Assembly: GCF_014202225.1 (NCBI RefSeq)
Contig: NZ_JACHGE010000002.1
Coordinates: forward strand, 490,636 to 554,635
Origin: Algibacter amylolyticus
GTDB taxonomy: Bacteria; Bacteroidota; Bacteroidia; Flavobacteriales; Flavobacteriaceae
Direction of reading: 5' to 3'
DNA length: 64,000 bases
Positions within the stretch are counted from its first letter, which is position 1. The number at the start of each line of letters is the position of its first letter. The position numbers and the translations under genes were made by a program. This document shows positions 1 through 15,765 of the stretch, piece by piece. The notes under the pieces were generated by a model. It worked only from the letters and a program-made list of their open reading frames with translations, was not told the DNA's origin and made no database searches.

Positions 1-2062
1 AGCCCGCGGCATCCACTTGAATTCTGGCGGTTTCATCGCCATCTTGATTTGGATCTATAATTGTATTGAAGGTAACCTCAACCTCTTTTTGGTTGGCAGG
101 AATTGTAACTGTATCTGGCAGCTCGATAATGTTTCCTAAATCGCTAGATAGGTTTACAATTACTGTGTTTTGAAGAATGTTTGGGTCTTCAGTGTTTCTT
201 GAAATAACAAGCGTGTTATTATCTGCACCTGCTTTAATTGTTGACGGCGTTATTTTTATATTTAATGCTAGCCCATCATTATCTAAAATTGTAATATTTC
301 CATTTACAGAGGCGCTTGGTTCTGTATCATCAACACATGAGCAACTATCAAACTTAATTTTTGAAGTTATGATAACTGTGCGCTCACCTTCAACCTCGGA
401 ATTATTTACAGCTCCAATATTGAATATTTTCTCAGATTCTCCTATTTGAAATGTAATTTCGGAGGGTAATATTAATTGATTAGCGGTATTTGCGCTAATT
501 TTTACTGTAACAGGTTTATCTAATTGATCTGTTCTTTTTAAGGTTGCATAAGAAGCTTTGATGCCATCGCCTTCAGAAATTTGAGCAGGGTTTATGCTGA
601 TAGTGAAATCGGGAAGGTTTATAGCTCCTAATTTAATTTCCTTAACAGCAGTAGTATAACCATCTGCCTTTGCAATAATATTAGCTGTTTCTGCTTTTTC
701 TATGATTTGAGAATCTAATATTGTGCCATTAAAGGTTATTGTTGTAGAATTGGCTAATAATGTAACTTGGCTAGGTAATTGTAATCTTTGTGGCAAATCT
801 GTAGACAGTGTAATAGTTCTATCTTCATCTACAGAAAAATTAGCATTTAAAGTAAAGGGTATGTTACTGCCTATTGCAGATTCAAATACCTCTGGATATT
901 CTAAGCTAAGTACAACATCTTCATCATCTAGCAATGTTAAACTAACACTTTCATCGCTATAAGCAGCGCTTTGGGCGATAATATTAACGGTTCTGTCGCC
1001 TTCGTAAGTTTCATTATCAATCGTGTTTACATAAAGAAATTTTGATGATTCATTTTCACCAATTGTAACCGTACTAGGCAAATTGAAAGCACCTACAGCA
1101 TCAGAAGAAACTGTAAAATCTTCGGCTATACTTGTATCACCACTTCTTACAAGTTTAAGTCTTAATACATCATCTGAGTTTTCAAAAACTTCATTTTTAG
1201 ATAGTGTAAAAATTAATCTTTTTAATAAATTTTGGGTGTCATTTGAAATGGCTGTATTATTTTCTTTAGTATTTGCAGGTTCTCTAACTTCGGCATTTGT
1301 AATTAGAGTAATTTCAATTTTTACTTCGCCATCAAAACCAATAATTCTAGGGATAATAACGTCTATATCTCGTGTTATAGTTTCATTCTCTGTAAGCGGA
1401 TTGGAATAATTTGCATTTCCGATAATATATTTTTTTCCATTGGTTTGAGATACTATTGCTATTTGTTCTCTCCAACCTCCAATTGCAGCAGATAAGCCAA
1501 TGTTTTCAACTTCCCAACTAATGCTGTATGGCGCATTAGGTAAAATATCATTTTGCAGTACGGATATTGCTCCAACTTGTAAATCTGGATTTTCACCTTC
1601 AATAATGGTTAATTCTCCGTTTTGGTGGTTGCTTCCTATATCGACTCCTGCACTAGAACTTACTATGGTTTCTGTGAATGTCATATCATATGTGTCACCA
1701 GTATTATAGGTTAATGGTATTTCTATAGGAATTTCAATAAGGCTACCTGTTTGTCCTGTAAAATTAGCATTGCTTCCAGAGAAACATAAAAACAAATATT
1801 CGCCATTACCCATCCTTTTTGGGTAAATAAGGTGGTCTGTATTTCTACCAGTAAAACTTACCTCTTTTTCTTTAACTATTAAGTTGTTTGGGACTTTTAT
1901 TTTAAATTGAAAACCCGAAATACTTTCAGTGTTATTTAGTGCAATTACTATTTTTGTATCATCTCCAGAAGCAGCCTCCAAGTCTTCTATAATTAGGCTG
2001 TTTTGTCCGTATGCTGTTGTAATAAATGACAACAGTAATAATGTGAATTTTATAGCTCTCAT
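1..2062 (-). CDS. Secreted cohesin-like / CARDB / Calx-beta repeat protein (partial, C-terminus beyond window)
   Basis: An open frame runs leftward from an ATG at 2060-2062 without a stop to the window edge, so about 687 N-terminal residues are visible. Residues 1-20 form a signal peptide ending AYGQ. Residues 21-150 read as a cohesin-like beta-sandwich (conserved pattern ESISGFQFKIKVP near the start, hydrophobic strand pattern later). Next comes a CARDB-type domain (about 155-270), then at least four Calx-beta-like modules, recognisable from recurring phrases such as TVTI followed by EGDRTV or EGERTV. It starts 12 bp downstream of the LRR gene stop and is probably co-transcribed with it. It is likely a surface or extracellular adhesion or scaffold protein. 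I would expect a T9SS sorting domain in the missing C-terminus, but that cannot be seen. The domain calls are by eye. Confidence 0.75.
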   Translation of the reverse strand, partial: MRAIKFTLLLLSFITTAYGQNSLIIEDLEAASGDDTKIVIALNNTESISGFQFKIKVPNNLIVKEKEVSFTGRNTDHLIYPKRMGNGEYLFLCFSGSNANFTGQTGSLIEIPIEIPLTYNTGDTYDMTFTETIVSSSAGVDIGSNHQNGELTIIEGENPDLQVGAISVLQNDILPNAPYSISWEVENIGLSAAIGGWREQIAIVSQTNGKKYIIGNANYSNPLTENETITRDIDVIIPRIIGFDGEVKIEITLITNAEVREPANTKENNTAISNDTQNLLKRLIFTLSKNEVFENSDDVLRLKLVRSGDTSIAEDFTVSSDAVGAFNLPSTVTIGENESSKFLYVNTIDNETYEGDRTVNIIAQSAAYSDESVSLTLLDDEDVVLSLEYPEVFESAIGSNIPFTLNANFSVDEDRTITLSTDLPQRLQLPSQVTLLANSTTITFNGTILDSQIIEKAETANIIAKADGYTTAVKEIKLGAINLPDFTISINPAQISEGDGIKASYATLKRTDQLDKPVTVKISANTANQLILPSEITFQIGESEKIFNIGAVNNSEVEGERTVIITSKIKFDSCSCVDDTEPSASVNGNITILDNDGLALNIKITPSTIKAGADNNTLVISRNTEDPNILQNTVIVNLSSDLGNIIELPDTVTIPANQKEVEVTFNTIIDPNQDGDETARIQVDAAG

Positions 2063-2074
2063 AATTTTTTAATA

Positions 2075-5000
2075 TTAATTATCTTTTATTATCATTTTAC
2101 CTTTTAATGTAGCGTTATAACCCTTAGTGTTTATTAAATAGAAATAAATTCCAGATGGCAATTTTTTACGTTTAAACAGGTATTGGTTATTTCCTTTTAA
2201 TAGAGTTTTTATAACTATTTCTTCTACTTTTCTGCCGCGTACATCGTAAATTGATAAGGTTGTGTTTGCTCTATTGTTATCTAAATAGAAATCGATTGTA
2301 GTTTCATCTTTAAAAGGGTTTGGGAAATTGTATGTGTGAGATGTTTTTCCGATATCAAATTCATTAGTGCTTAGTGCGTTTTCTAAAATTTCTGAAGGAA
2401 TCTCATTGGCATCTATACCTGCTAAAAGAACGGATTGAACAGAAGCGCTCGTGTTGGCCAATTTAGCTAGTGCTATTTTTCCATTTAAACTCGAACTAAA
2501 AGAGTAGGCAATAAGATTAACACTATTGTTTTTATTAGCCATGTTTACTGAAAAACCAAGCGGAGAAATTAATTCTTCTATTGTTTCTTTAGTGGTGTCA
2601 TTAATTAAAATTTCGAAACTAGTAACATCATGTCCATTAGTGTCTAAGTATAAAAATCCGTTTTCTATACTAATTTTTGAAGTCGTGGCACTATGTGTTT
2701 TTTCTTTGGCTAAGGCACTTTTGGTGGTGACTTCCTTCTCTTGATTTTGTATAATATTAACTTGCCCAATAACATCTAGAATATTGATGCTATTACTACT
2801 GTTCACATCGGCTGCATTAAAATTAAAATAAGGAACATAGTTATTAATTATATGATTAATTGAAGTTTGTATATCCAAAACATTCAATTGACTATCTAGA
2901 TTGGAATCTCCAGATTCATATTGTAAATAATAATTTATGATACTGTTTTTAGCATCACCAGAAATTTGCCTTAGTTCTACTTTTTGATTATTGGGTACTT
3001 TCCAGGTCTTAATTAAATCTATTAATTTAATACCAGTTTCTGAAAGATTAATGGTTCTTGAGAAACTCCCAATTCGTAAATTATAGGTTTGATTATTAAA
3101 ACTGCTTTTAGAATGTTCGTAGGTATTAATACTAAAATCTTTTATAGTGGTCTCGCTATTTAGGTTAATATCTCCAGCTTCAATAGTTTGTCTATCGTAC
3201 ACAAAATCTATGGTTGCTGGTAAAGCGGTATCAATGCTAGTTAATTTGTTTGATGATAAGTTTAATGTGTTTAAAAAAGGCAAATCACCAAATATATTAG
3301 GAACACTGTTTGATACATTGTTTGCACTTAAGTTTATAGCTACAATATGCCCATCGTAAGTGCTTACACCATACCATTTGTTAGTGTGTAGGTTATTGGT
3401 TGAAATATCCCAACTATTAGTCCAATCATCGCCATCTAAACTGTTGTATAAACTAACTAATGCAAGATATTCTTGTTCAACAACAGGAATATTGGATTTG
3501 TCTTCAATACCTTCATAATTAAACTCTGTATTTCTAAACGTACCTGTAGTTTGACGAATTGAAATTTTAGCATTGGAAGGAATTTCGCCAATTCTTACAT
3601 CTTCGAATATAATTTCACCAACATCATTGGTAATAGTAGAGGTGTGGGTAACATCGTTAACTAGTAAAACAAACGTGTTTTTGGCATCGAAATTATTGTT
3701 TTCTAAATCGTATTTTGCAACGTTTCCTAGTTCGACGGTTAGTTCACTACCTTCTAAATTTAATACCGTATTAAAATTAATAACTTGGTTTCGTAAATCT
3801 ATATAGGTGTTAGTAAAATCGTAGTACAGTTTCTTTTCAACATTATCGAAACCATTACTAGAAATATCTAAATGCTCTAGGGCTACAAAATCTGATAATA
3901 CAGATGGAACCGTACCGGTAAAATTATTATTACCAATGGCAAATTTTTTCAAGTATTGTAAATCAGAAATAGTATTAGGTATATTGCCAGATAACGCGTT
4001 AGAACTTAAGTCCAATGTTTCTAAATCTGTTAATAAACTAATATTTGTAGGTATACTACCTTGTAAATCGTTATTATTTAAAGCTAGTATTTGTAACTTA
4101 CTCAAGCCCGTAATATCCGCAGGAATAACCCCAGATAGATTATTATTAAATAAATTAATAGAAACCACGTGCCCTCCTTTTATACTAACACCAAACCAAC
4201 TGGTTGTATTTACATTATTTACACTAATATCCCATGAGTTTGTCCAGGAATCGCCGTTTGTTGCGTTGTATAATGTTTTTAAAATTTCAAATTCTTCATC
4301 TACAAGAGGTAAACCAAAACTTAAAGTGTTATAGTAAATATTGGAGTATTGCGCTGCACCTGTAGTTTGATAGATTCTAATGTTATCAGTTACTTCTAAG
4401 TTTAGTAAATTGATATTAGAAAATATTAATTTCCCATCGCTTGAAAAGCTAGTTTTTTGATACACATTATTTACAAATAGTTGAAATTCGTTGCTGGCAT
4501 TAGTATTTACTTCTCCTGTATTGAAATCAATTATTAACGCGGTTGGCAGATCAATATTAATCTCGTTAGATTCAATTTCTATATTTTCAATATTAATGGT
4601 CTGGTATCGAAGATTAAGAGTGGTTAATTGTAAATTAGAAAAATTAACTTCCGAATTCTCTAAAGAATTATAACTTAAATCCAATACTTCTAGGTTCGTT
4701 AAGCTATCTAGTTCTGCCGGTATTGAGGTTATGTCATTATCCCTAATGGATAGGGATTTTAAATTAGTTAATTGACTCCATGAAGCGGGTAGTGGACCAG
4801 AAATATTGCAATATCTTAGATTTAATTCTTCTAAACTTTCTAGACCAGAGAGGTTATTGAGATCTGTAGAACTAAAATCATGAGTATAATAGCTTGAGGT
4901 TGTAGTCGAACTTAAATCAAGTTTCCTAAGAAATTTTAAATTACTGAATGAGGCAGGTATTGCACCTACTATTCTATTGTTTGGTAAGCTTATTTCAACA

Positions 5001-8000
5001 ATATGTCCATCTTCAATTGCTAAACCATACCATGCTCCTAAGTTTAGGTTGTTTATACTAACATCCCATTGGTTTATCCAATTGCTATCGCCTTGTGTGG
5101 CATTGTAAAAATCTACTAGTGCTTGATATTCTTCATCTGGAATTTCTTCCAAATCTAAAGTAGTGTTGGTAAAGTTGATAGTTGTGCCATATGAAGTTCC
5201 ATTTTGTTGGAAAATGGACACTTGTTGCTCTGGAGTTAAAGAGCTTAGGTACTCTTTTGGAATTATAAGACTTCCGTCTGCCTCCATACCAAGATTTGTT
5301 GCTACATTACTATTGTTTATTCTTAAATAAAAACTGTTTAATTCCGAAAAATCATTATTAGCCCTATTGTAGCGGGTAATATCGGGTAGGTTGGTTAATA
5401 CCACATCATCTCCACTATACACAAACTCATCTCTGGTTATGGTTTGATAATATATACTTAAATTAACGCTAGGAGTTAAAAAAGCCTCGATATCAGTAAT
5501 CTGATTATAATAAACATTCAATGTGGTTAGATTAGTAAGATCTTCTAATTCTTGTGGTAAGATGGTAATTTCGTTATTTCTTAAATTAATAGTTTTTAAG
5601 CTTGTTAAATTGCCTATAGAGGTCGAGATAGCTGTTATGTTATTATAGGAGAAATCAACCTCTTCTAATGCTGTTAAGTTATCTATCTCGCTAAAAATAG
5701 TTCCTGAAAGCGCATTGTTATTTAATGTTAACGATTTTAAATTGGTAAGTTGCGACCATGAAGATGGTAGGCTTCCGGATATATTGCAATACCTCATATT
5801 AAGTTCTTCTAGGCTTTCCAATCCCGATAGATTATCAAGATTGGTAGAACTGAAATCGTGGGCATAATAAGAAGAAGAAGTAGAACTTAGGTTAAGCGTT
5901 CTTAGAAACTTTAAATTACTAAAAGTAGCTGGAATGGCACCTATAATTCTATTGTTTGGTAAGTTTATTTCAACAATATGTCCATCTTCAATAGCTAAAC
6001 CATACCATGCTCCTAAGTTTAGGTTATTAACGCTTACATCCCAGGTGTTTATCCAAGAGCTATCGCCTTGGGTAGCGTTATAAAAATCAACAAGTGCTTG
6101 ATATTCGTCATCAGGAATTGCAGGTAAATCTAACGTGGTAGTGGTAAAGTTGATAGTTGTGCCATATGAAGTTCCATTTTGTTGGAAAATGGACACTTGT
6201 TGCTCTGGAGTTAAAGAGCTTAGGTACTCTTTTGGAATTATAAGACTTCCGTCTGCCTCCATACCAAGATTTGTTGCTACATTACTATTGTTTATTCTTA
6301 AATAAAAACTGTTTAATTCCGAAAAATCATTATTAGCCCTATTGTAGCGGGTAATATCGGGCAAGTTGGTTAATACCACATTATCTCCACTGTACACAAA
6401 CTCATCTACGGTTATGGTTTGATAATATATACTTAAATTAACGCTAGGAGTTAAAAAAGCCTCGGTATCCGTAATCTGATTATAATAAACATTCAATGTG
6501 GTTAGATTAGTAAGGTCTTCTAATTCTTGTGGTAAGATGGTAATTTCGTTATTTCTTAAATTAATAGTTTTTAAGCTTGTTAAATTCGCTATGGAGGTGG
6601 GAATACCTGTTAAATTATTATATGAAAAATCGATTTCTTCCATGTCTGTTAAATTACCTATCTCGCTAAAAATAGTTCCTGAAAGCGCATTATTATTTAA
6701 TGTTAACGATTTTAAATTGGTAAGTTGCGACCATGAAGATGGTAGGCTTCCAGATATATTGCAATACCTCAAATTCAGTTCTTCTAGGCTTTCCAATCCC
6801 GATAGATTATCAAGATTGGTGGAACTGAAATCGTGGGCATAATAAGACGAAGTAGTAGTAGAACTTAGGTTAAGCGTTCTTAGAAACTTTAAATTATTAA
6901 AAGTAGCTGGAATGGCACCTATAATTCTATTGTTTGGTAAGTTTATTTCAACAATATGTCCATCTTCAATAGCTAAACCATACCATGCACCTAAATTTAG
7001 GTTATTAACGCTCACGTCCCATGTGGTTATCCAAGAGCTATCTCCTTGGGTCGCATTATAAAAATCGACTAATGCTTGATATTCATCATCAGGAATTGCT
7101 GGTAAATCTACAGTGGTAGTTGTAAAGTTAATATAAGTGCCTCCTGCTGATCCGGACTGCTGGTATAACCTTACCTGTTTTTCAGAAGTTAAAGTATTTA
7201 ATAAAGATTTTGATAGCACAATGCTGCCATCAGCTTCCATTTTAATGTTTGTAGCCACATTGCTTCCATCTATTTGTAAATAAAAATTATTTAATGCAGA
7301 GAAATCGTTGCTAGTTCTGTTGTAACGCGTAATATCAGGTAAATTAGTTAAAATCACATCTACGCCATTGTAAACAATTTCGTCCAATATTACTGTTTGG
7401 GAATTTATACCTAAATAAATATTGGTATTTAAAAATCCTTCTATATCGTTAATCATATTATACTCTAAATATACATGAGTTAAATTAGTAAGGTCTTCCA
7501 ATTCTTGTGGTAAGATGGTAATCTCATTATATCTTAAATTGATAGTTTTTAAGTTTGTTAAATTGCTTATTGATGCTGGAATAGCTGATAAATTATTATT
7601 AGAAAAATCTATAGATTCCAATGCTGTTAAATTACCTATCTCGTTAAAAATAGTATCTGCAAGTTCGTTATTGCTTACTATTAAGGATTTTAACTCTGTT
7701 AATTGACTCCACGACGTAGGAAGGCTACCTGAAATACTGCAATACCTAAGGTTTAAATCTTGTAAACTTTCTAATCCAGAAAGGTTTTCAAGATTTGATG
7801 AACTCAAATCATGGCTATAAGAACTTGAGGTTGTGGTTGCACTTAAATCAAGTTTTCTAAGAAATTTTAGATTGCTGAATGAAGCAGGTATAGCACCTCT
7901 AACTTTATTGTTTGGTAAACTAATTTCAACAATATGTTCATTTTCTACAACAACTCCATACCATGTTGTAGTATGTAAATTATTACTACTAATATCCCAT

Positions 8001-8146
8001 TTGGTTCGCCAATCGTCTCCTCCCATTAAATTGTAGAAATCTACTAAAGCTTGATATTCTACGGTTGGTACAGGGGCATTTTGTGCAAATAAAGGAGTCG
8101 AAAATACTAAAAGAATAATTTTTAGTAAAAAGTACTTTTTCTTCAT
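2075..8146 (-). CDS. Giant leucine-rich-repeat protein with dockerin-like segment and T9SS sorting domain
   Basis: The 2023-residue protein has a signal peptide (about 1-21, ending LFAQ). Six repeated modules follow, starting near residues 30, 355, 681, 1006, 1285 and 1558. Each opens with an E-(Y/F)-x-x-L-x-x-(F/L)-Y-N type helix, a W-x-x-x-WD motif and N-x-W-(Y/F)-G, then plant-type leucine-rich repeats (LxxLxLxxNxLxGxIP). Residues about 1744-1805 look like a type I dockerin: two calcium-loop segments, DSNLDSQLNVLD and DVNSSNSINILD. A cohesin-like beta region lies at about 1825-1920. The last 85 residues are a T9SS type A sorting domain (YNFPNPF, then G-I-Y-F-Y). It is probably a cell-surface binding protein. 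The partner is unknown, but the downstream gene encodes a cohesin-like domain. Modules 2 and 3 are near-identical at DNA level. Confidence 0.85.
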   Translation of the reverse strand: MKKKYFLLKIILLVFSTPLFAQNAPVPTVEYQALVDFYNLMGGDDWRTKWDISSNNLHTTTWYGVVVENEHIVEISLPNNKVRGAIPASFSNLKFLRKLDLSATTTSSSYSHDLSSSNLENLSGLESLQDLNLRYCSISGSLPTSWSQLTELKSLIVSNNELADTIFNEIGNLTALESIDFSNNNLSAIPASISNLTNLKTINLRYNEITILPQELEDLTNLTHVYLEYNMINDIEGFLNTNIYLGINSQTVILDEIVYNGVDVILTNLPDITRYNRTSNDFSALNNFYLQIDGSNVATNIKMEADGSIVLSKSLLNTLTSEKQVRLYQQSGSAGGTYINFTTTTVDLPAIPDDEYQALVDFYNATQGDSSWITTWDVSVNNLNLGAWYGLAIEDGHIVEINLPNNRIIGAIPATFNNLKFLRTLNLSSTTTSSYYAHDFSSTNLDNLSGLESLEELNLRYCNISGSLPSSWSQLTNLKSLTLNNNALSGTIFSEIGNLTDMEEIDFSYNNLTGIPTSIANLTSLKTINLRNNEITILPQELEDLTNLTTLNVYYNQITDTEAFLTPSVNLSIYYQTITVDEFVYSGDNVVLTNLPDITRYNRANNDFSELNSFYLRINNSNVATNLGMEADGSLIIPKEYLSSLTPEQQVSIFQQNGTSYGTTINFTTTTLDLPAIPDDEYQALVDFYNATQGDSSWINTWDVSVNNLNLGAWYGLAIEDGHIVEINLPNNRIIGAIPATFSNLKFLRTLNLSSTSSSYYAHDFSSTNLDNLSGLESLEELNMRYCNISGSLPSSWSQLTNLKSLTLNNNALSGTIFSEIDNLTALEEVDFSYNNITAISTSIGNLTSLKTINLRNNEITILPQELEDLTNLTTLNVYYNQITDIEAFLTPSVNLSIYYQTITRDEFVYSGDDVVLTNLPDITRYNRANNDFSELNSFYLRINNSNVATNLGMEADGSLIIPKEYLSSLTPEQQVSIFQQNGTSYGTTINFTNTTLDLEEIPDEEYQALVDFYNATQGDSNWINQWDVSINNLNLGAWYGLAIEDGHIVEISLPNNRIVGAIPASFSNLKFLRKLDLSSTTTSSYYTHDFSSTDLNNLSGLESLEELNLRYCNISGPLPASWSQLTNLKSLSIRDNDITSIPAELDSLTNLEVLDLSYNSLENSEVNFSNLQLTTLNLRYQTINIENIEIESNEINIDLPTALIIDFNTGEVNTNASNEFQLFVNNVYQKTSFSSDGKLIFSNINLLNLEVTDNIRIYQTTGAAQYSNIYYNTLSFGLPLVDEEFEILKTLYNATNGDSWTNSWDISVNNVNTTSWFGVSIKGGHVVSINLFNNNLSGVIPADITGLSKLQILALNNNDLQGSIPTNISLLTDLETLDLSSNALSGNIPNTISDLQYLKKFAIGNNNFTGTVPSVLSDFVALEHLDISSNGFDNVEKKLYYDFTNTYIDLRNQVINFNTVLNLEGSELTVELGNVAKYDLENNNFDAKNTFVLLVNDVTHTSTITNDVGEIIFEDVRIGEIPSNAKISIRQTTGTFRNTEFNYEGIEDKSNIPVVEQEYLALVSLYNSLDGDDWTNSWDISTNNLHTNKWYGVSTYDGHIVAINLSANNVSNSVPNIFGDLPFLNTLNLSSNKLTSIDTALPATIDFVYDRQTIEAGDINLNSETTIKDFSINTYEHSKSSFNNQTYNLRIGSFSRTINLSETGIKLIDLIKTWKVPNNQKVELRQISGDAKNSIINYYLQYESGDSNLDSQLNVLDIQTSINHIINNYVPYFNFNAADVNSSNSINILDVIGQVNIIQNQEKEVTTKSALAKEKTHSATTSKISIENGFLYLDTNGHDVTSFEILINDTTKETIEELISPLGFSVNMANKNNSVNLIAYSFSSSLNGKIALAKLANTSASVQSVLLAGIDANEIPSEILENALSTNEFDIGKTSHTYNFPNPFKDETTIDFYLDNNRANTTLSIYDVRGRKVEEIVIKTLLKGNNQYLFKRKKLPSGIYFYLINTKGYNATLKGKMIIKDN
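5132..7084 (-). repeat. Two near-identical tandem coding units (about 975 bp each) inside the LRR gene
   Basis: Modules 2 (6107-7084, 326 codons) and 3 (5132-6106, 325 codons) of the LRR protein are tandem copies. The stretch from about 5166 to 5400 is almost base-for-base the stretch from about 6141 to 6375. The single-codon length difference lies in the serine/threonine run after TLNLSS. Such high identity at silent sites points to a recent duplication or gene conversion. It is also a likely spot for assembly collapse or copy-number variation. Confidence 0.85.
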
Positions 8147-9110
8147 TTTTTTTAATTTTAGTTGTTAGATAATTTTTAATGTTTTCCAATTCTATAGATT
8201 TTAAGATACATGATAACCTATTACTAGATGTTCTCTTGATTTATTATTGGCATTCGAAATACTAAAAAGGAATAGAGTATACCAATATGAGAGGGACCGG
8301 AAAAAAATATTTTAGAATTTGTAGAGAAATGATAATTCTTAGAATAAATTTTTTTACCACATACATTATTTGAGAGTATCAGAATAATTATTGGAACAAT
8401 TAATATGAAGTAATTTGTTATCATGAGTAGCAACTTATATCAATTAATCTATTGCCAATTTTTTGGCAAAAGTTAATTATCAACCTATTAGTAAATTGCT
8501 ATTAATAATATGGAGGAACACTAATTTAAAAGATTTTTGAATTAATCTGATTTATTTCCGATTAAAGTCAATATTATCAGTTTATAAGCAGTAGGTGTTT
8601 GTTTTTTTTAATCTTAAATATTGTGACTAATATTTCGTTATAAGCGGATAATTAAATTAATTTCGAATAATGGCAAATGAAGTATAAGGTTTAGGTATCT
8701 AATTGTTATTTCTTGCTATACGGTGTAGCTTTTTATTAAAATTTAAGCACCTAATCAGGCAATTTTCATGTGGCATTATTTCATTTTATAAGATACCTAA
8801 TAAAATGTAAAAAGCCCATAAACATAAAGTTTATGGGCTTTTGTGGAATTTAAGCAATTCCTTGATGAGAATGAGGAACTATCCAAACCAATTTTTTTAC
8901 AGCATTCAAAGTGCTTTACCTTATATGATAGTTTTTAACGTACCCGTCTAGATAATTTAAACCATTTATTTTTAATTGTAGAGATAAGATGGTTTTTAGC
9001 TAGTGAATTGGTGGTTAAAAAGTTATGTGTCAAGGTTAATATTTGTTTTATTAATATTATGGTAGCATGATAATTTCCCTTGTAGTAAGTAAAACTAAGC
9101 TCAAATTAAT
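8147..9110. other. Intergenic stretch separating the LRR genes from the L-AHG operon
   Basis: These 964 bases are very AT-rich. The only clear element is a minus-strand terminator near 8810. A 69-codon minus-strand frame at 8224-8433 has low-complexity hydrophobic content and no supporting context, so it is not called. I see no tRNA or other RNA gene. Confidence 0.6.
8810..8842 (-). terminator. Rho-independent terminator, probably ending the L-AHG operon
   Basis: A perfect 14-bp stem (AAAAGCCCATAAAC with GTTTATGGGCTTTT) closes a short loop. On the minus strand it is followed by a T-rich tail. It lies about 270 bp beyond the GH117 stop codon, the last gene of the minus-strand operon. Confidence 0.8.
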
Positions 9111-10319
9111 CTAATCTTCACTCACACCTTTAGCAGTATGTTTTTTCATTCTCCATGTTTTAAAACCTCTAATATATTGGTAATCGGAGTTTTTGTATTC
9201 ATGAGTTAAACCCCAACGTAATATTTCGGTAGGTTCTTTTTCGTTATCAGTAGTTCTATCTAAACCTATAGCATGTGGAGCTCCTTTTACTACACCTTTA
9301 ATATCGAAGTTAATACCATCTGGAGACCATTGTACCGTGTTTTTCTCTGGGCCATCTGTAGTAATTAATGCTGCTATACCGCCATTATAAGGCCAAACAC
9401 AAATTTCGTGTCCGCTATTTGAAATCGGGTTGTATGGAGATTTCACGTAAGGTCCTTTAGGATTATCAGCAATGGCAACACCATGTCTAATTTGTCTGCC
9501 TCCAAAAGTAATAGCTTCCCCCATTTGTTCACCTTTATAGTACAAGTAGAACTTCCCTTTGTATGGAATAATGCAAGGATCGTGTACTTTATGACTATCA
9601 AAATCCCCTTTCTTTTCTACGGCAAATCGGTCTTGTTTTTCTCCTTTCCAAATGCCATTATCAGCAGGACTTAAAATAGGCTCTTCACTCTTAGTCCAAG
9701 GACCATTTGGTGATTTAGACCAAGCTAAACCTACTTGATTTTTAACACGAACACTATATGGGTTTTTAACCGTTTGGTAGCATAAGTAGTAGGTGTCTTC
9801 GTGTTTCATGATTTCTACGGTAAATACCGAGCGATCATCATAAGCGCCAGCTTCTCCTCGAGCTACCGCTAAGCCTTCTTCTTTCCATGTAATTCCATCT
9901 TCTGAAGTTGCATACCAAATATCACAACGATCCCAAGGGAACACTTTATCTTTAACTACATCGCCGCCAAATCCTTGAGAAGGACCAGTACTTCTACTGT
10001 ACCAAACATAGTATTTTCCATCTTCTTTAATTAATGCGCTAGGGTCTCTTCTTACAACACCTTCTTCATAAGCTAAATCGCCTTTTAAATCGAAAACTTG
10101 ATATTCAAAAAACCATTCATTTCCTAAATCTGTTGGCCATTTAAGAGCTCTTTTTGAAGCAGCACTTAAATATTCTTTATTGGTGATGCCTAAAAAATCT
10201 TGTTGTTCGTCAGAAATTAAAGTCTCAGTTTCTGTAACATCTTGTTTTTTTTCTACGTTATTGCATGAGGTTAAATTCATTGCCATAGCAATAGTTAATG
10301 TGTATATTATTTTTTTCAT
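9111..10319 (-). CDS. GH117 alpha-1,3-(3,6-anhydro)-L-galactosidase (neoagarooligosaccharide hydrolase)
   Basis: The 402-residue protein starts with a lipoprotein-type signal (AMNLTSC, cysteine about 19), so it is probably anchored in a membrane facing the periplasm. The N-terminal motif S-A-A-S-K-R-A-L-K-W-P (about 53-63) is the helix typical of GH117 dimers. The five-bladed propeller follows. D92 (RRDPS), D247 (VHDPC) and E305 (SGHEICVWPY) have the same spacing (155 and 58) that I recall for the catalytic residues of Zobellia AhgA. The family releases 3,6-anhydro-L-galactose from the non-reducing end of neoagaro-oligosaccharides. It is the last gene of the L-AHG operon, 24 bp after the transporter gene, which fits: it makes the sugar the other genes consume. 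Confidence 0.92.
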   Translation of the reverse strand: MKKIIYTLTIAMAMNLTSCNNVEKKQDVTETETLISDEQQDFLGITNKEYLSAASKRALKWPTDLGNEWFFEYQVFDLKGDLAYEEGVVRRDPSALIKEDGKYYVWYSRSTGPSQGFGGDVVKDKVFPWDRCDIWYATSEDGITWKEEGLAVARGEAGAYDDRSVFTVEIMKHEDTYYLCYQTVKNPYSVRVKNQVGLAWSKSPNGPWTKSEEPILSPADNGIWKGEKQDRFAVEKKGDFDSHKVHDPCIIPYKGKFYLYYKGEQMGEAITFGGRQIRHGVAIADNPKGPYVKSPYNPISNSGHEICVWPYNGGIAALITTDGPEKNTVQWSPDGINFDIKGVVKGAPHAIGLDRTTDNEKEPTEILRWGLTHEYKNSDYQYIRGFKTWRMKKHTAKGVSED

Positions 10320-10343
10320 TTTCTAATGATTTAATTTTTTTAT

Positions 10344-11357
10344 TTATGAAATTCCATTTCCGTATGCCACAATCACAATACCGACTACCATGCATACTAA
10401 TCCAAAATATAAAAAGCTTTTTGCTTTTCCTGAAGCCTTTATCCATTCTTTAGTAATAATACCACTCAAAATAGCTGTAACTACACAAGATGTATTAAAG
10501 ATAGCATAACCAACAGTATTTCCACTTTCTCCTAACTTAAAGGCGGCAAATGCAAATAAAGCTGAAGCCGCATAATGAAAAACGGCCATGATTAAAATAA
10601 GCATAAAGTTTTTGCTAAATGCAGGTGTTTTAAATTCTCCCCATGCTTTTTTCTGAGATAACTGCCACAAGAAATAAGCCGTCATTACAATACCTCCACT
10701 AATAAAAATAGGAAACATAACGGCAACAGCAGTAATCCATTCTGCATTACCAGCCGCTTGACAAGCCTCATGTAAATACGGGCGACCCGCAGCATTGGCA
10801 TAACTAAAACCAGTGGCTAATAAACCTCCAATAATAGCAATTAAGATACCTGTAAGCATAGAGCCTTTTTTCTCCTTTTTTTCAGAAGAATTAGCCTCGT
10901 CTTTTTCACGTAGTAAACCTGCTTTTCCATTAGCAAAAACACCAACTAAAACAACAGCTAAACCTATTAGAATAGTGGTTAGTACGTTTGTTGCAGGTAA
11001 ACCTTCTTCAATGTAAGGTAATAGAGAACCTACAAGAATAATGGTGCCTATAAATAAAGAAAACCCTAAAGATAACCCAATGTGATTAATGGCTTTACTC
11101 CACATCATAACACCAATTCCCCATAGAAAACTTGTTAGACCCATTTTAACCCAAATATCGGTGGGCATGTTTCCAAAAATATCACCGAAACCATTAATTA
11201 AAGTTATTGAAGCGATAATTGGCACGACAAACATGGTTAGTAAAAAAAATAAACTCCAAGTATTTTCATACTTAAAATCTTTGGTAAATTTTTCTGGGAG
11301 TGCGTACAATCCCAACATTAATCCTGCGAAAATCGCTAATAAAACGCCTTCAATCAT
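10344..11357 (-). CDS. RhaT-like (DMT superfamily) sugar/proton symporter, candidate L-AHG transporter
   Basis: The 337-residue protein consists of about ten hydrophobic segments with short loops, apart from a charged loop near residues 155-170 (KDEANSSEKKEKKG). The opening, G-x-x-L-A-I-F-A-G-L-M-L-G-x-Y-x-L-P, and the general layout resemble the L-rhamnose:proton symporter RhaT and related drug/metabolite transporters. It would sit in the inner membrane. It lies between the aldose epimerase and GH117 genes of an operon otherwise devoted to 3,6-anhydro-L-galactose, so import of L-AHG (or a related L-sugar) is the natural inference. L-rhamnose import is the alternative, but no rhamnose isomerase or kinase gene lies nearby. 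Confidence 0.8.
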   Translation of the reverse strand: MIEGVLLAIFAGLMLGLYALPEKFTKDFKYENTWSLFFLLTMFVVPIIASITLINGFGDIFGNMPTDIWVKMGLTSFLWGIGVMMWSKAINHIGLSLGFSLFIGTIILVGSLLPYIEEGLPATNVLTTILIGLAVVLVGVFANGKAGLLREKDEANSSEKKEKKGSMLTGILIAIIGGLLATGFSYANAAGRPYLHEACQAAGNAEWITAVAVMFPIFISGGIVMTAYFLWQLSQKKAWGEFKTPAFSKNFMLILIMAVFHYAASALFAFAAFKLGESGNTVGYAIFNTSCVVTAILSGIITKEWIKASGKAKSFLYFGLVCMVVGIVIVAYGNGIS

Positions 11358-11398
11358 AATTGGTTTTTTTAGTTATTAATTTAGTTCTGTTATTGTAA

Positions 11399-12433
11399 TT
11401 ACCATCCAAATTTAAAGATGGTAGTACTTTTAAATTCTTCACCCGCTTTTGTTATTGATTTTGGTGAGTTTTCAATGTTTGGCCCATTTTGATATCGATG
11501 AGTTTCACAACAAAAACCGCGGTATTTTCCATATTGTTCACCATTTTCTCTTTTAATAGCGTCCGATGTGTATTTTCCAGTATATAATAACATACAAGGT
11601 TCTGTTGATGATACTGTTAATGTTCTTCCAGATTCATCCGATGTAATTTGAGCTACTTCTTGAAGTTTAAAATCAGGATTATCAAATACATAAAAATGCT
11701 CAAATCCATCACCCATTGCAGTGTGTACATCTCCAATGCTTTTTCCTTTAGATAAATCATCAATCTTACCTTCTATATTTTCAATTGCTCCCGTTGCCGC
11801 ACCTGTATCGTCCATTTTGTGCCTTTTAGTTGTATTTATTTTAGCATTATGGTTTTCTACATTTGAAGAAAAAGCATTTAAATTGAAATACGTATGATTT
11901 GTTAAAGAGAGCGGAGTGTCCTGATCTGGTTTGGCAGAATAGTCAATCCTTAACTCATTATTTGATGATAATGTAAATGTTACAGAAACTTCAACGTTTC
12001 CAGGGAATCCTTCTTCTAAATCCTTACTATAAAGAGACATTTTTACGGCATTATCAAAAGTTTCAGCTTTCCATATTCTTTTATCAAACCCAAGAACGCC
12101 ACCATGAAGATTATTTTCTCCACAATTTTTAGCTAAATGATATATTTTTCCATTTAAAGTAAATTTTGAATCTTTTATTTGAGAACAATATCTTCCAATA
12201 GTACCTCCAAAGTATGGTGAGTTTTCAACATATTCTTTACCGAAATAACCATCTAAAGTATCAAAACCACAGGCAATATTTTCAATTTCGCCCTTTTTAT
12301 TTGGAACCGTTATTGAAGTTATAGTTGCTCCATAATTAGTTATTTTCACTTCAATACCATGTTCATTTTTCAATAAAAACTGTTTAATTTCTTCACCTTG
12401 GTAATTTCCGAAAATTGAAATCTTTGCACTCAT
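11399..12433 (-). CDS. galM: Aldose 1-epimerase (galactose mutarotase family)
   Basis: The 344-residue protein has the GalM fold signatures: N-YGATITSI near the N-terminus, a NNLHGG motif (N and H bind substrate), TNHTYFNL around residue 180 (catalytic histidine), and a C-terminal (C)CxETHRYQNGPN segment with the catalytic glutamate region. There is no signal peptide, so it is cytoplasmic. It interconverts alpha and beta anomers of D-galactose or a related hexose. In this operon it probably helps process galactose released together with anhydrogalactose. It lies 35 bp downstream of the cycloisomerase gene. Confidence 0.92.
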   Translation of the reverse strand: MSAKISIFGNYQGEEIKQFLLKNEHGIEVKITNYGATITSITVPNKKGEIENIACGFDTLDGYFGKEYVENSPYFGGTIGRYCSQIKDSKFTLNGKIYHLAKNCGENNLHGGVLGFDKRIWKAETFDNAVKMSLYSKDLEEGFPGNVEVSVTFTLSSNNELRIDYSAKPDQDTPLSLTNHTYFNLNAFSSNVENHNAKINTTKRHKMDDTGAATGAIENIEGKIDDLSKGKSIGDVHTAMGDGFEHFYVFDNPDFKLQEVAQITSDESGRTLTVSSTEPCMLLYTGKYTSDAIKRENGEQYGKYRGFCCETHRYQNGPNIENSPKSITKAGEEFKSTTIFKFGW

Positions 12434-12468
12434 AAGATTTTTTTTAGATTTAGTTTATTGTTAACTTA

Positions 12469-13563
12469 TTATTTAGCTTCAAAAGGCGCTAATTTTTCCC
12501 AATCGAAAATCACACCAATTCCTGGGTAATCTGGGGCAACAGCTCTATGGTTTTCTACCACTAAAGGTCTTGTTGTATATTCATCTATTGGAAAGCTATG
12601 TACTTCTAACCAGCCTGAATTGGGTTGTGCAGATACTAAACTTACATGCAATTCTTGCATACCGTGAGAGCAAGCAGGAACCCCATGTTTATCTGCCAAT
12701 CGTGCTGCTGCTAGCCAACCAGTAATACCGCCACAGTTTGAGGCATCTGGCTGAATAAAGGATAGTTTTGCCTGATCGAAAGCATATTCAAATTCATGAA
12801 TAGTATGCAGATTTTCTCCCATAGCTAACGGAAAGCCTGTTTTATCGACAATTTCCCCAAAGCCTTTGTAATTATCTGGAATAATTGGTTCTTCAAACCA
12901 AGTGATATCATATTTTTTAAAACCTTCAATAGCTTTTATGGCTTTTTCAACAGTCATAGAATAATTAGCATCAACCATAAACGTAACATCTGGACCAATA
13001 AATTCTCGAACTGCCTTAATACGGTCTAAATCTTCTTGAAGATTATCTCTACCTATTTTAATCTTAACCGCTTTAAATCCCTTAGCTAAATAGCCTTCCA
13101 TATTCTTTAAAAGCTTTTCAATAGGAAACATTAAATCAATACCACCACAATACGCTTTACAGGTATTATTAACTCCCCCAGCCATTTTCCATAATGGTAA
13201 TCCTGCTTTTTTACATTTAATATCCCATAGGGCAATATCCACCGTAGAAATAGCAAAAGATGCAATACCACCGCGGCCTACGTAATGTACATGCCATTCT
13301 AAAAAGTCGTAAATACCATCAATATCGGTTCCGTCTTTACTTATTAAAACATTTGCAAAATCATGTTCAATCATGGCTTTAATGGCATAACCACCTTTTC
13401 CTCCAGTATAGGTATATCCTGTGCCTTCGCTTCCATCTTCTAAAGTGATGGTTGTGGTTACTAGCTCAAAATGATAATGGTCGCCATGTTTAGCATCCGA
13501 CATAATTTCGGGTAATGGTACCGTAAATAGACGTACATCTACTTTTGAAATTTTTGTACTCAT
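12469..13563 (-). CDS. 3,6-anhydro-L-galactonate cycloisomerase (enolase superfamily)
   Basis: The 364-residue protein belongs to the mandelate racemase/muconate-lactonizing branch of the enolase superfamily. The catalytic lysine motif KIK is at 167-169. The metal ligands are D198 (MVDANYS), E224 (WFEEP) and E250 (MGENLH). A likely catalytic histidine, H300, lies in CSHGMQELH. It sits beside an aldehyde dehydrogenase, an SDR and an MDR in the order expected for L-AHG catabolism, so the best match is the enzyme that opens 3,6-anhydro-L-galactonate to 2-keto-3-deoxy-L-galactonate. It is cytoplasmic. The alternative is a sugar-acid dehydratase of the same superfamily; the context and the C-terminal half favour the cycloisomerase. 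Confidence 0.85.
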
Positions 13564-13578
13564 ATTATAAGTCTTTTA

Positions 13579-15765
13579 CTATTTTAGTTTAATTGTTATT
13601 TCAATAGGTTTTGCTGCTCCAAGTTTTAAGCTTTTTTTACTTGGTAACGCATTGCCTATCATTAATTTGTAATTTCCTTTTATCCACGCCTTTTCTCCTT
13701 CCAAATTAGTTTGATAGAAATCTTGATTAGAAATATTAAAGCTTATGTTTTTTGTTTCACCTGCAAGTAATTCTACTCTTTTAAAGGCTTTTAAAGAATA
13801 TTTTGGTAAGAAGCCTTGAGTATCTTCAGGCACTAAATAGACTTGAATAACGTCTTCAAAGTTTACTTTACTAGTATTCTTAAAATCTACAGAAAAGGAG
13901 AAATCTTGTTTTTTACTAATGCTTTTTAAATAGCCGCTAGCATTGGAGAACTCTGTTTGGCCATAAGTTAGTCCGAAACCAAAAGGATACATCGGTTCTT
14001 TTTCCATGTATTTATAGGTTCTGCCTTTCATACTATAATCATCAAAAGCAGGTAATTGATCTACGTTTTTAGGAAATGTAATTGGTAAGTGACCAGAAGG
14101 AGATACATCGCCAAATAGAATATCGGCAACGGCATTGCCGCCTTGCTCTCCGGGATACCACATTAATACAATAGCATCTACATAAGGTTCTACATCTTCT
14201 AGCGAAACTGGGCTACCTGTGCCGATAACTAGAACTAATGGACCTTTTTTTACTTCACTTATTTCTTTTATATAATCTATTTGGCTTTGCGGTAGTTTTA
14301 AATCTTTTCGGTCACCTTTATGTTCAGATGCAATAGCATCAACTTCTTCACCTTCAATTTCGTTCGAAATACCAACAACTAGAATGGTAGCGTCAATTGT
14401 TTTTGCAACATTTGGTGCCCAATTAAGAGGATTTAAATTCTTTTGAAAAGGTAATACGCCTTGTCTGTAATTTAAAGAGGTTCCTAACGATACTTTTTCT
14501 GTAACACCTTCCAAAACCGTTACTAAATTGGAAGACATACCATAGTAATTTGCTATTAAAATATTACTTGAAGAGGAAAATGGTCCGGTGACATAAAGTG
14601 ATTTTATTTTTTTATCAAGCGGTAAAACGTTATTATCATTTTTTAATAGAACTATAGATTGTTGCGCTACTTTTCGAGCAAGTTCTTTATTTTCTTTAGA
14701 GTTGATAACTTCAGTACCTATACTATTATATGGATTGCTTTCATCTTTATCAAAGAATCCTAGTTTGAAACGTATTAAAAATAATTGTTTTAAACGTTCA
14801 TCTAATAAGGACTCAGATATAAGTCCTTTTTCAACAGCAGATTGAATTTCATTATAAACCCATCCGCAGTTTAGGTTAACACCGGCAATAAGTGCTAATG
14901 CCGCTGCTTCTTCAACAGTTTTTGCCTTTTTATGTCCCTTTAGAATATCTCCTAAAGCACCACAATCGGAAACTATATAACCATTAAAACCCCATTGTTT
15001 TTTTAAAATATCATCTAACAAGAAAGTACTACTTGTTGATGGTTCTCCATATACCGCATTGTACGCACCCATAACACCTTGTACATTTGCTTGTGTAACT
15101 AAGGCTTCAAAAGCAGGTAGGTAAGTTTCGTTTAAATCTAATTTTGAAGGATTAGCATTAAAACTATGACGTAGTTCTTCGGGGCCAGAATGTACCGCAT
15201 AATGCTTTGCACAAGCTGTAGTTTTTAAGTATTTTGGATGATCACCTTGTAAACCTTCCACATAAGCAATGCCTATTTTTGAAGTTAAAAAGGGATCTTC
15301 TCCGTAAGTTTCTTGTCCGCGCCCCCAGCGAGGATCTCTAAATATATTCACATTTGGAGACCAGTAGGTTAAACCGGCATATTGACCTCTATTATTTATA
15401 GATTTTGAAACTTGAAATTTGGCTCTGCCTTCATCTGAAATTGCAGTTGAAACTTCCTTTATTAATTCAGGATTAAAAGTGGCTCCCATAGCTATTCCCT
15501 GAGGGAAAATAGTTGCCTTTCCGTTTCGTGCAACACCATGTAGAGACTCATTCCACCAATTGTATTCTGGTACGTCTAATCTTGGTATTGCTGGTGATGC
15601 TGAAACAAATTGACTGCATTTTTCTTCAAGAGTCATGGCTTGAACCAATAAATTGGCTCTCTCTTCAAAGGGTATACTTTCATCAAACCATTTAAAGTTA
15701 TTTTGAGCATAACTTTGCAGGGTTAGAATAAATAGAATTATAAAGATTAAAACGTTGTTTTTCAT
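13579..15765 (-). CDS. Glycoside hydrolase family 3 (beta-glycosidase; substrate uncertain)
   Basis: The 728-residue protein has a signal peptide (1-21, ending SYAQ) and the three-part GH3 layout. A TIM-barrel contains the KHYAVHSGPE motif and the nucleophile D267 in VSDCGAL. An alpha/beta sandwich follows (LLKNDNNVLPL, IGTGSPVSLED, WYPGEQGGNAVADILFGD). The C-terminus is a fibronectin-III-like domain. SDC rather than SDW after the nucleophile is more common in beta-xylosidase-like GH3 enzymes. It lies inside the L-AHG operon, 63 bp from the aldehyde dehydrogenase gene and 15 bp from the cycloisomerase gene. A role in clipping a beta-linked D-galactose or a side branch (for example xylose) is possible. 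The sequence alone does not settle the substrate. Confidence 0.85.
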   Translation of the reverse strand: MKNNVLIFIILFILTLQSYAQNNFKWFDESIPFEERANLLVQAMTLEEKCSQFVSASPAIPRLDVPEYNWWNESLHGVARNGKATIFPQGIAMGATFNPELIKEVSTAISDEGRAKFQVSKSINNRGQYAGLTYWSPNVNIFRDPRWGRGQETYGEDPFLTSKIGIAYVEGLQGDHPKYLKTTACAKHYAVHSGPEELRHSFNANPSKLDLNETYLPAFEALVTQANVQGVMGAYNAVYGEPSTSSTFLLDDILKKQWGFNGYIVSDCGALGDILKGHKKAKTVEEAAALALIAGVNLNCGWVYNEIQSAVEKGLISESLLDERLKQLFLIRFKLGFFDKDESNPYNSIGTEVINSKENKELARKVAQQSIVLLKNDNNVLPLDKKIKSLYVTGPFSSSSNILIANYYGMSSNLVTVLEGVTEKVSLGTSLNYRQGVLPFQKNLNPLNWAPNVAKTIDATILVVGISNEIEGEEVDAIASEHKGDRKDLKLPQSQIDYIKEISEVKKGPLVLVIGTGSPVSLEDVEPYVDAIVLMWYPGEQGGNAVADILFGDVSPSGHLPITFPKNVDQLPAFDDYSMKGRTYKYMEKEPMYPFGFGLTYGQTEFSNASGYLKSISKKQDFSFSVDFKNTSKVNFEDVIQVYLVPEDTQGFLPKYSLKAFKRVELLAGETKNISFNISNQDFYQTNLEGEKAWIKGNYKLMIGNALPSKKSLKLGAAKPIEITIKLK

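Follow-up and report, generated by a model that had tools for sequence, protein, structure and literature searches.

Our analysis of a 64,000-nucleotide stretch of the Algibacter amylolyticus genome (C2:490636-554635 of 4.35 Mb, hereafter the window) suggests that two adjacent genes, A and B, are a two-gene unit making a two-part surface complex, in which a dockerin of the secreted leucine-rich repeat (LRR) protein A would be docked in a cohesin of protein B. We give this reading a probability of roughly 0.6, and favour docking of A on B because the gene order recurs across genomes and because the distances among dockerins co-vary with those among B cohesins. Gene A (2075..8146, minus strand, as for all parts of both genes) is an open reading frame (ORF) of 2023 amino acids (aa) with matches over cut-off to LRR families and Por_Secre_tail and with a full-length relative in genome G444. 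Its modules are, in order, a signal peptide (about residues 1-22, 8081..8146, assigned by eye), an LRR payload (about residues 27-1690, 3077..8068; Pfam LRR_8, LRR_4 and LRR_1, with approximate limits set by eye), a dockerin (residues 1742-1803, 2738..2923), a sandwich module that we term coh' (about residues 1818-1933, 2348..2695) and a type A sorting tail of the type IX secretion system (T9SS; residues 1941-2019, 2090..2326). Gene B follows 12 base pairs (bp) downstream (gap 2063..2074 from the ORF coordinates) and begins with a signal peptide (about residues 1-19, 2006..2062, by eye) and the cohesin (residues 21-155, 1598..2002). The window edge cuts B after 687 of its 2776 codons (1..2062); the remainder, read from the neighbouring stretch (C2:484367-492697 for the whole gene), has a T9SS tail at its end. 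The coordinates given in the original prediction, which was made from the letters of the window, were right, and B runs past the window.

The original prediction had proposed a dockerin in the LRR protein, and both profile and model agree with it. Dockerin_1 (PF00404) matches A residues 1746-1792 with 23.4 bits in the genome search and 23.6 bits for the isolated 64-aa segment (cut-off 22.9); in longer contexts the score lies below the cut-off (16.6 bits for whole A, 20.0 to 20.5 for fragments). Among the aligned dockerin rows, 53 of 55 match PF00404 at E up to 0.001, and a six-row profile (A2) run against the Protein Data Bank (PDB) finds dockerins with a best E of 5.7e-4 and some EF-hand proteins further down. 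In the AlphaFold model of A 1736-1942 the dockerin occupies model residues 5-68 and superposes on 6kg9 with Z 10.2 and a root-mean-square deviation (rmsd) of 2.0 Å over 64 aligned residues; the predicted segment, that is, has a dockerin fold. Loop 1 carries D, N, D and D at positions 1, 3, 5 and 12, which we take to be the calcium ligands of dockerins (D1, N3, D5, D12), and contact of this dockerin with a cohesin would presumably depend on calcium.

Judged by its predicted fold, the segment B 21-155 is a cohesin beta-sandwich. The claim that B starts with a cohesin is upheld by this fold, by a ten-row alignment profile (A1) and by the relatives, but the segment itself has no match to the Pfam family Cohesin (PF00963), even when the genome was searched at E up to 10, so the profile search that had been proposed for both segments succeeded directly for the dockerin and only through relatives for the cohesin. 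A direct Pfam search would have led to the conclusion that the genome has no cohesin, which is overturned by the matches of the relatives, the A1 profile and the predicted fold. Five of the ten rows of A1 match PF00963 at E up to 1 (best 3e-8), as do 42 of 112 domains in a larger alignment (A8, the named loci described below plus the window) at E up to 0.001. Against the PDB, the A1 profile, which includes the window row, has 6kgc as its top match (E 2.8e-5), and the first five of 15 listed matches are cohesin scaffoldin chains (E 2.8e-5 to 0.025). A single-sequence search of 249 genomes of the same family likewise returned weak but coherent relatives (best E 7e-10). The AlphaFold model of B 20-160 has a predicted local distance difference test score (pLDDT) of 95.9 and a predicted template modelling score (pTM) of 0.88, and solved cohesins match it along its length; after the top 1000 Foldseek matches were re-examined, its best counterpart was 6kge (Z 18.6, rmsd 1.6 Å, 131 aligned), and all 50 listed structure matches are cohesin or cohesin-complex entries, 2o4e being titled just 'protein-protein interaction module'.

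A further cohesin-like region had been suggested behind the dockerin of A, and this too proved correct. An alignment of coh' segments, with full-length cases excluded, matches the B cohesins in hhalign with 97.1% probability (E 6.6e-11) from cohesin position 20 on, and the model of A coh' superposes on 6kgf with Z 11.9 and rmsd 3.0 Å over 110 aligned residues. Because the profile match starts at position 20 and the model has a cohesin fold, coh' is a cohesin shortened on its N-terminal side. Foldseek returned 12 matches with E up to 0.001, all cohesins; at Z 8 and above there are also non-cohesin matches (YcnI entries, 3esm and 3ml6), the sandwich shape not being exclusive to cohesins, and it is the profile-profile comparison that decides in favour of a cohesin. 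The region after the dockerin in relatives at times matches the cohesin profile as such (L042 1.9e-8, L044 5.8e-6, L037 8e-5, L038 0.002); in the A1 profile search of the genome the window's own coh' was not matched.

Single-sequence searches with the window's two segments hit 5 and 8 of the 249 same-family genomes beyond the window's own, four of them common to both searches; in three of these the modules lie in adjacent genes (G092, G004, G239) and in one within a single ORF (G246). Profile searches of the same sample found the dockerin in 6/249 and the cohesin in 5/249 genomes plus one marginal case, which agrees with the earlier remark that such modules are unusual in Flavobacteriaceae; the window genome holds one dockerin and one full cohesin by these profiles. 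The sole same-family genome with a dockerin and no cohesin is G064, where the contig ends inside gene A. Several matches were set aside, four of them from the single-sequence searches: the cohesin match of G074 (E 0.003), in a subtilase-like ORF with a T9SS tail that was not returned by the profile and had no cohesin pattern by reading; the dockerin match of G054, not returned by the profile and with no dockerin seen when the ORF was read; the dockerin matches of G065 and G206, which the profile did not return. The marginal profile match of G012 to the cohesin (E 5e-4 in a 97-aa frame) was left uncounted. Across 395 genomes of the phylum, 22 had a match to the dockerin profile and 18 to the cohesin profile at E 1e-4 or better. 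Every genome with a strong dockerin match (E below 1e-17), eight in all, also belongs to the nine whose cohesin match is strong (E below 1e-20), and in 8/8 gene A is directly followed by gene B. In the ninth strong-cohesin genome, G531, the gene preceding B holds a weak dockerin (0.008). The weaker-match genomes that were opened are G252, G323, G338, G402 and G531, and a second place in G531 is unpaired.

A scan of named genomes with dockerin-only queries gave 78 loci, which we divided, by classes set after the architecture had been seen, into 43 A-type loci (dockerin 150-330 aa from the C-terminus), 20 with a C-terminal dockerin, 6 others and 9 that are cut off. Loci with 600 bp or more visible downstream were counted as usable, which excluded the nine cut-off loci, three A-type loci and one of the others. 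At least three of the named loci are the same contigs as in the phylum or family samples (L049 = G092, L074 = G438, L086 = G246). A cohesin is encoded in the next same-strand ORF at 31 of the 40 usable A-type loci, a rate that holds for this dockerin family, as the queries were dockerins from paired loci; at non-A-type dockerin loci with equal room the next ORF held a cohesin in 0/25 (20 C-terminal, 5 other). Two of the C-terminal loci, L100 and L115, have cohesins elsewhere. In further A-type loci the cohesin lies in the second-next ORF (L072, L073, L075), the preceding ORF (L052, L103) or the same ORF (L086), so that 37/40 have one in one of these places. Two further cases flagged by the script were removed, as the 'cohesin' of L084, which would have been the 32nd next-ORF case, is the coh' of a second A gene, and that of L099, a third upstream case, is the coh' of another A. 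The hosts of paired loci, which belong to Bacteroidota and allied phyla, include Flavobacterium succinicans, Flavobacterium laiguense, Psychroflexus salis, Polaribacter, Ignavibacteriaceae, Prolixibacteraceae, Cloacimonadota, KSB1 and Neomarinimicrobiota. On this evidence of gene order, the A-B pairing is not a product of chance.

The paired loci also share an architecture. A-type proteins keep a constant C-terminus (dockerin, coh', T9SS tail), the query match ending 198-241 aa before the protein end, behind a payload that is exchanged between LRR, FG-GAP and subtilase domains. Subtilase payloads were found in 5/6 A proteins of one Pfam-scanned set and 6/7 of another; in the latter, L055 and L103 lack the Pfam dockerin or have it under the cut-off, and the seventh protein (L101) has dockerin and cohesin only. 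LRR payloads occur in the window and L034 by Pfam and in G632 and G760 by N-terminal similarity, and FG-GAP payloads in G004 and G239. The commonest form of B has three cohesins about 235 residues apart, with HYDIN-type immunoglobulin-like (Ig) domains matching in the gaps in 5/7 B proteins scanned. The window type has a single cohesin on a giant of about 2770 aa, and both A and B of G444 align with those of the window over nearly their whole length at about 41% identity (2056 aligned columns for A). This LRR-type B was found in 3/150 genomes of G444's genus, including G444, and in 1/10 of the window's genus, the window's own, a patchy distribution; a dockerin gene adjoins B in G444, G522, G632 and G760. 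Two or three dockerin genes are consecutive before the cohesin gene in L075 and L036 and before the contig end in L058 and L084, an arrangement that a scaffold would allow.

Some of these loci have peculiarities of their own. A plastocyanin-like insert (residues 594-671) splits the third cohesin of the G004 B protein (L027:5829-10091, minus strand; PF00127, E 6e-4, 20.6 bits against a cut-off of 21.2), and by alignment the B protein of G239 (L028:10536-14297) shows the same pattern. Directly after an A-type gene, L104:4203-9698 (plus strand) is an 1831-aa ORF with four cohesins, a dockerin and a cohesin, possibly a self-assembling or adaptor scaffold. An open frame without ATG in Algibacter mikhailovii (L086:9392-10894, plus strand) reads cohesin-dockerin-cohesin-T9SS tail beside a GH3-like ORF, and seems to be what is left of a longer surface protein after 5' truncation. 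An alignment of cohesin-dockerin-cohesin fusions (A7) was set aside for modelling, as it covered few columns of the first cohesin.

Both proteins carry the signals expected of surface cargo. The tail of A matches PF18962 with 40.1 bits (cut-off 27) and TIGR04183 with 33.2 bits (cut-off 23), that of B matches PF18962 with 29.8 bits, and the genome encodes SprA, the T9SS gene searched for (SprA_N matches); with sorting tails and SprA, A and B both qualify as type A cargo of the T9SS. The comparison across genomes supports the earlier suggestion that adjacent genes with the two halves of such a pair point to a surface assembly, the contact itself being our inference.

Over 27 pairs, and with two control domains removed, the distances among dockerins and B cohesins co-vary with a partial r of 0.55 (permutation p 0.0005), where the 'S8' control is an imperfect one, being the stretch before the dockerin in all 27 pairs and in L049 FG-GAP-like, not subtilase. 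The correction for shared descent is partial, and for coh' and the B cohesins the partial r is 0.41. Cohesin positions conserved among 115 rows include Q33 (in 107), D35 (102), R71 (103) and S76 (109), in model numbering, and these sit on model strands E31-37 and E69-76, which from clostridial cohesins we take to belong to the dockerin-binding sheet. In the LRR-type cohesins of the window, G444 and G522, D35 is replaced by K or T and R71 by L or H, and in G444 and G522 Q33 is also replaced by E; in the dockerins of all three, L takes the place of G at loop 1 position 4. The LRR type departs from the others in both partners, which is suggestive only.

The mechanism that we propose starts from A and B being transcribed as one two-gene unit. 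Both proteins would cross the inner membrane by their signal peptides and the outer membrane by the T9SS, to be held at the surface or released, and outside the cell the calcium-loop dockerin near the C-terminus of A would plug into the N-terminal cohesin of B. B would then form a long stalk, built of Ig/CARDB-type domains, on which the LRR blade of A is presented or anchored, and the blade would presumably bind a partner or surface, in what may be an adhesion role. In relatives, other payloads (subtilase, FG-GAP propellers) sit on the same plug, and B is often a three-cohesin scaffold with HYDIN-type Ig spacers. For the short cohesin, a covering or bracing role at the dockerin is likely; it may serve as a cap that B displaces, as a brace or as the true partner. 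In type II dockerins an X module serves as a brace. A cap would leave the rest of the scheme unchanged. A tentative extension of it, which we hold as doubtful in its full form, is that the dockerin is latched to its own coh' in transit and, once outside the cell, passes to the full cohesin that the neighbouring scaffold gene encodes, as a phylum-wide T9SS-exported arrangement in which payloads are swapped before a constant cassette.

Docking of A on B has to be weighed against an action of the dockerin in cis, in which it would clasp coh' into a calcium-stapled rigid stem by the sorting tail and the cohesin of B would serve otherwise, for example for another ligand. We think this unlikely, if a serious contender. 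A coh' or a full cohesin stands C-terminal of the dockerin in the 55 aligned rows, and L086, L101 and L104 have a full cohesin in the place of coh'. The model of dockerin plus coh' reaches a pTM of 0.78 with both domains near pLDDT 95, where arithmetic with assumed error values would give about 0.5 for a free orientation and about 0.75 for a fixed one; because this is reached despite a loose linker, AlphaFold probably docks the dockerin of A onto coh', and the contact with B may not be its sole or earliest one. Such a defined orientation, with the dockerin possibly occupied in cis, is one of several findings that weigh against docking on B. Dockerin and coh' distances co-vary too (partial r 0.47, with descent controlled in part only), and no cohesin gene is nearby at 3/40 A-type loci (L084 at a contig end, L093, L099). 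Among the weaker phylum matches that were opened, both modules lie in one ORF in G252 and G338 and are unpaired in G323 and G402. In the window itself, the cohesin has K at D35 and L at R71, positions conserved in relatives, and position 5 of dockerin loop 2 is S, a place taken by D in 53 of 55 aligned rows. Action in cis, however, leaves the immediate separate cohesin gene at most A-type loci unexplained, and the co-variation of the dockerin with the B cohesins is at least as strong as that with coh'.

The two folds could also serve large adhesins only as stable spacers, one a beta-sandwich and the other binding calcium, with no contact between them. The altered positions of the window pair would suit such spacers, and PMC6030884 describes a cohesin-homologous domain in vertebrate TMEM132 with dockerin homologues undetectable there. 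However, both modules occur in the same few genomes, side by side and with changing payloads, which would not be expected of unlinked spacers, and we consider this explanation quite improbable. As cohesins and dockerins are the assembly parts of cellulosomes, and as sugar-processing-like ORFs (by reading) lie on both sides of the pair, a cut-down cellulosome might be imagined; for this genome the idea is already contradicted and hardly credible. By the profiles, the genome has a single dockerin and a single full cohesin, not many dockerin enzymes and many cohesins, the dockerin carrier is an LRR protein and not an enzyme, and no carbohydrate-binding module is among the Pfam matches of B; A-B is therefore not a cellulosome.

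Docking of A on B would resemble, and differ from, several known systems. The type I cellulosome pair CaCohA2-CaDoc0917 of Clostridium acetobutylicum (6kgc-6kgf) has the same folds as those predicted here and a dockerin with duplicated calcium loops; in contrast, A and B belong to a Gram-negative host, have T9SS tails on both partners and an LRR payload, are the one pair found in their genome, include a coh' behind the dockerin and are encoded side by side. Cohesins and dockerins outside cellulosomes are already known. The cohesins of Archaeoglobus fulgidus (2xdh) and of glycosidase modules in Clostridium perfringens (2vo8, 2jh2) likewise have the cohesin fold outside a cellulosome, in other organisms and on other carrier proteins, which presumably have no T9SS. 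With type A cargo of Bacteroidota, A and B share the N-terminal signal peptide (by eye) and the PF18962 tail, and we know of no T9SS cargo pair that is joined via cohesin and dockerin. A further case is Candidatus Stygibacter (Cloacimonadota), for which a cellulosome-like complex was inferred from genomes, with dockerin proteins and a cohesin scaffold that has a C-terminal sorting domain; according to passages of that account (PMC8542988), its dockerins are on glycosidases and peptidases and its scaffold is one large protein of tandem cohesins and a carbohydrate-binding module, whereas the carrier in A-B is an LRR protein. The same passages make no mention of two adjacent genes forming a unit, of a short cohesin that follows the dockerin or of members in Bacteroidota. 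Folds, parts and a T9SS-linked cellulosome-like complex inferred for Cloacimonadota are thus known (PMC8542988 for the last), and among the matches listed from the open-licence literature we recognised no description of the recurrent two-gene unit, the exchangeable payload or coh'.

The pairing of cohesin and dockerin is known above all as the glue of the cellulosome. If docking of A on B holds true, it would be a general route to surface complexes from Flavobacterium to Ignavibacteriaceae, Cloacimonadota, KSB1 and Neomarinimicrobiota, and the A-B loci supply defined partner pairs with natural variation. It also raises the question of why a dockerin should carry a second cohesin of its own. 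Contacts of this kind reportedly rank with the strongest measured between a receptor and its ligand (PMC6030884).

Because a 964-bp intergenic stretch lies upstream of A and a terminator-like hairpin of 14 pairs (8842-8810, minus strand) stands between A and the preceding gene (9111-10319), A-B looks like a transcription unit of its own. Promoter-like sites in 8100-9120 showed no excess (8 against a mean of 7.5 in shuffles), and an Rfam search of window positions 1-12000 returned zero RNA families. After its N-terminal sandwich, B has Pfam matches over cut-off to CARDB and carboxypeptidase-regulatory-like domains, and under cut-off to Calx-beta-, LapA-, MG2- and Big_13-like domains. Residues 1343-1520 of B (P0001) are rich in Cys and Gly, with 11 of the protein's 19 cysteines within 1356-1520 and no Pfam match listed there. 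The sugar-processing-like ORFs, all named by reading, flank the pair on both sides. Those in 9111-15765 of the window resemble genes for a glycosidase-type lipoprotein, a sugar transporter, an aldose epimerase, an enolase-type protein and a GH3, and those in L002:4021-9138 are ribulokinase, epimerase, arabinose isomerase and mutarotase-like ORFs.

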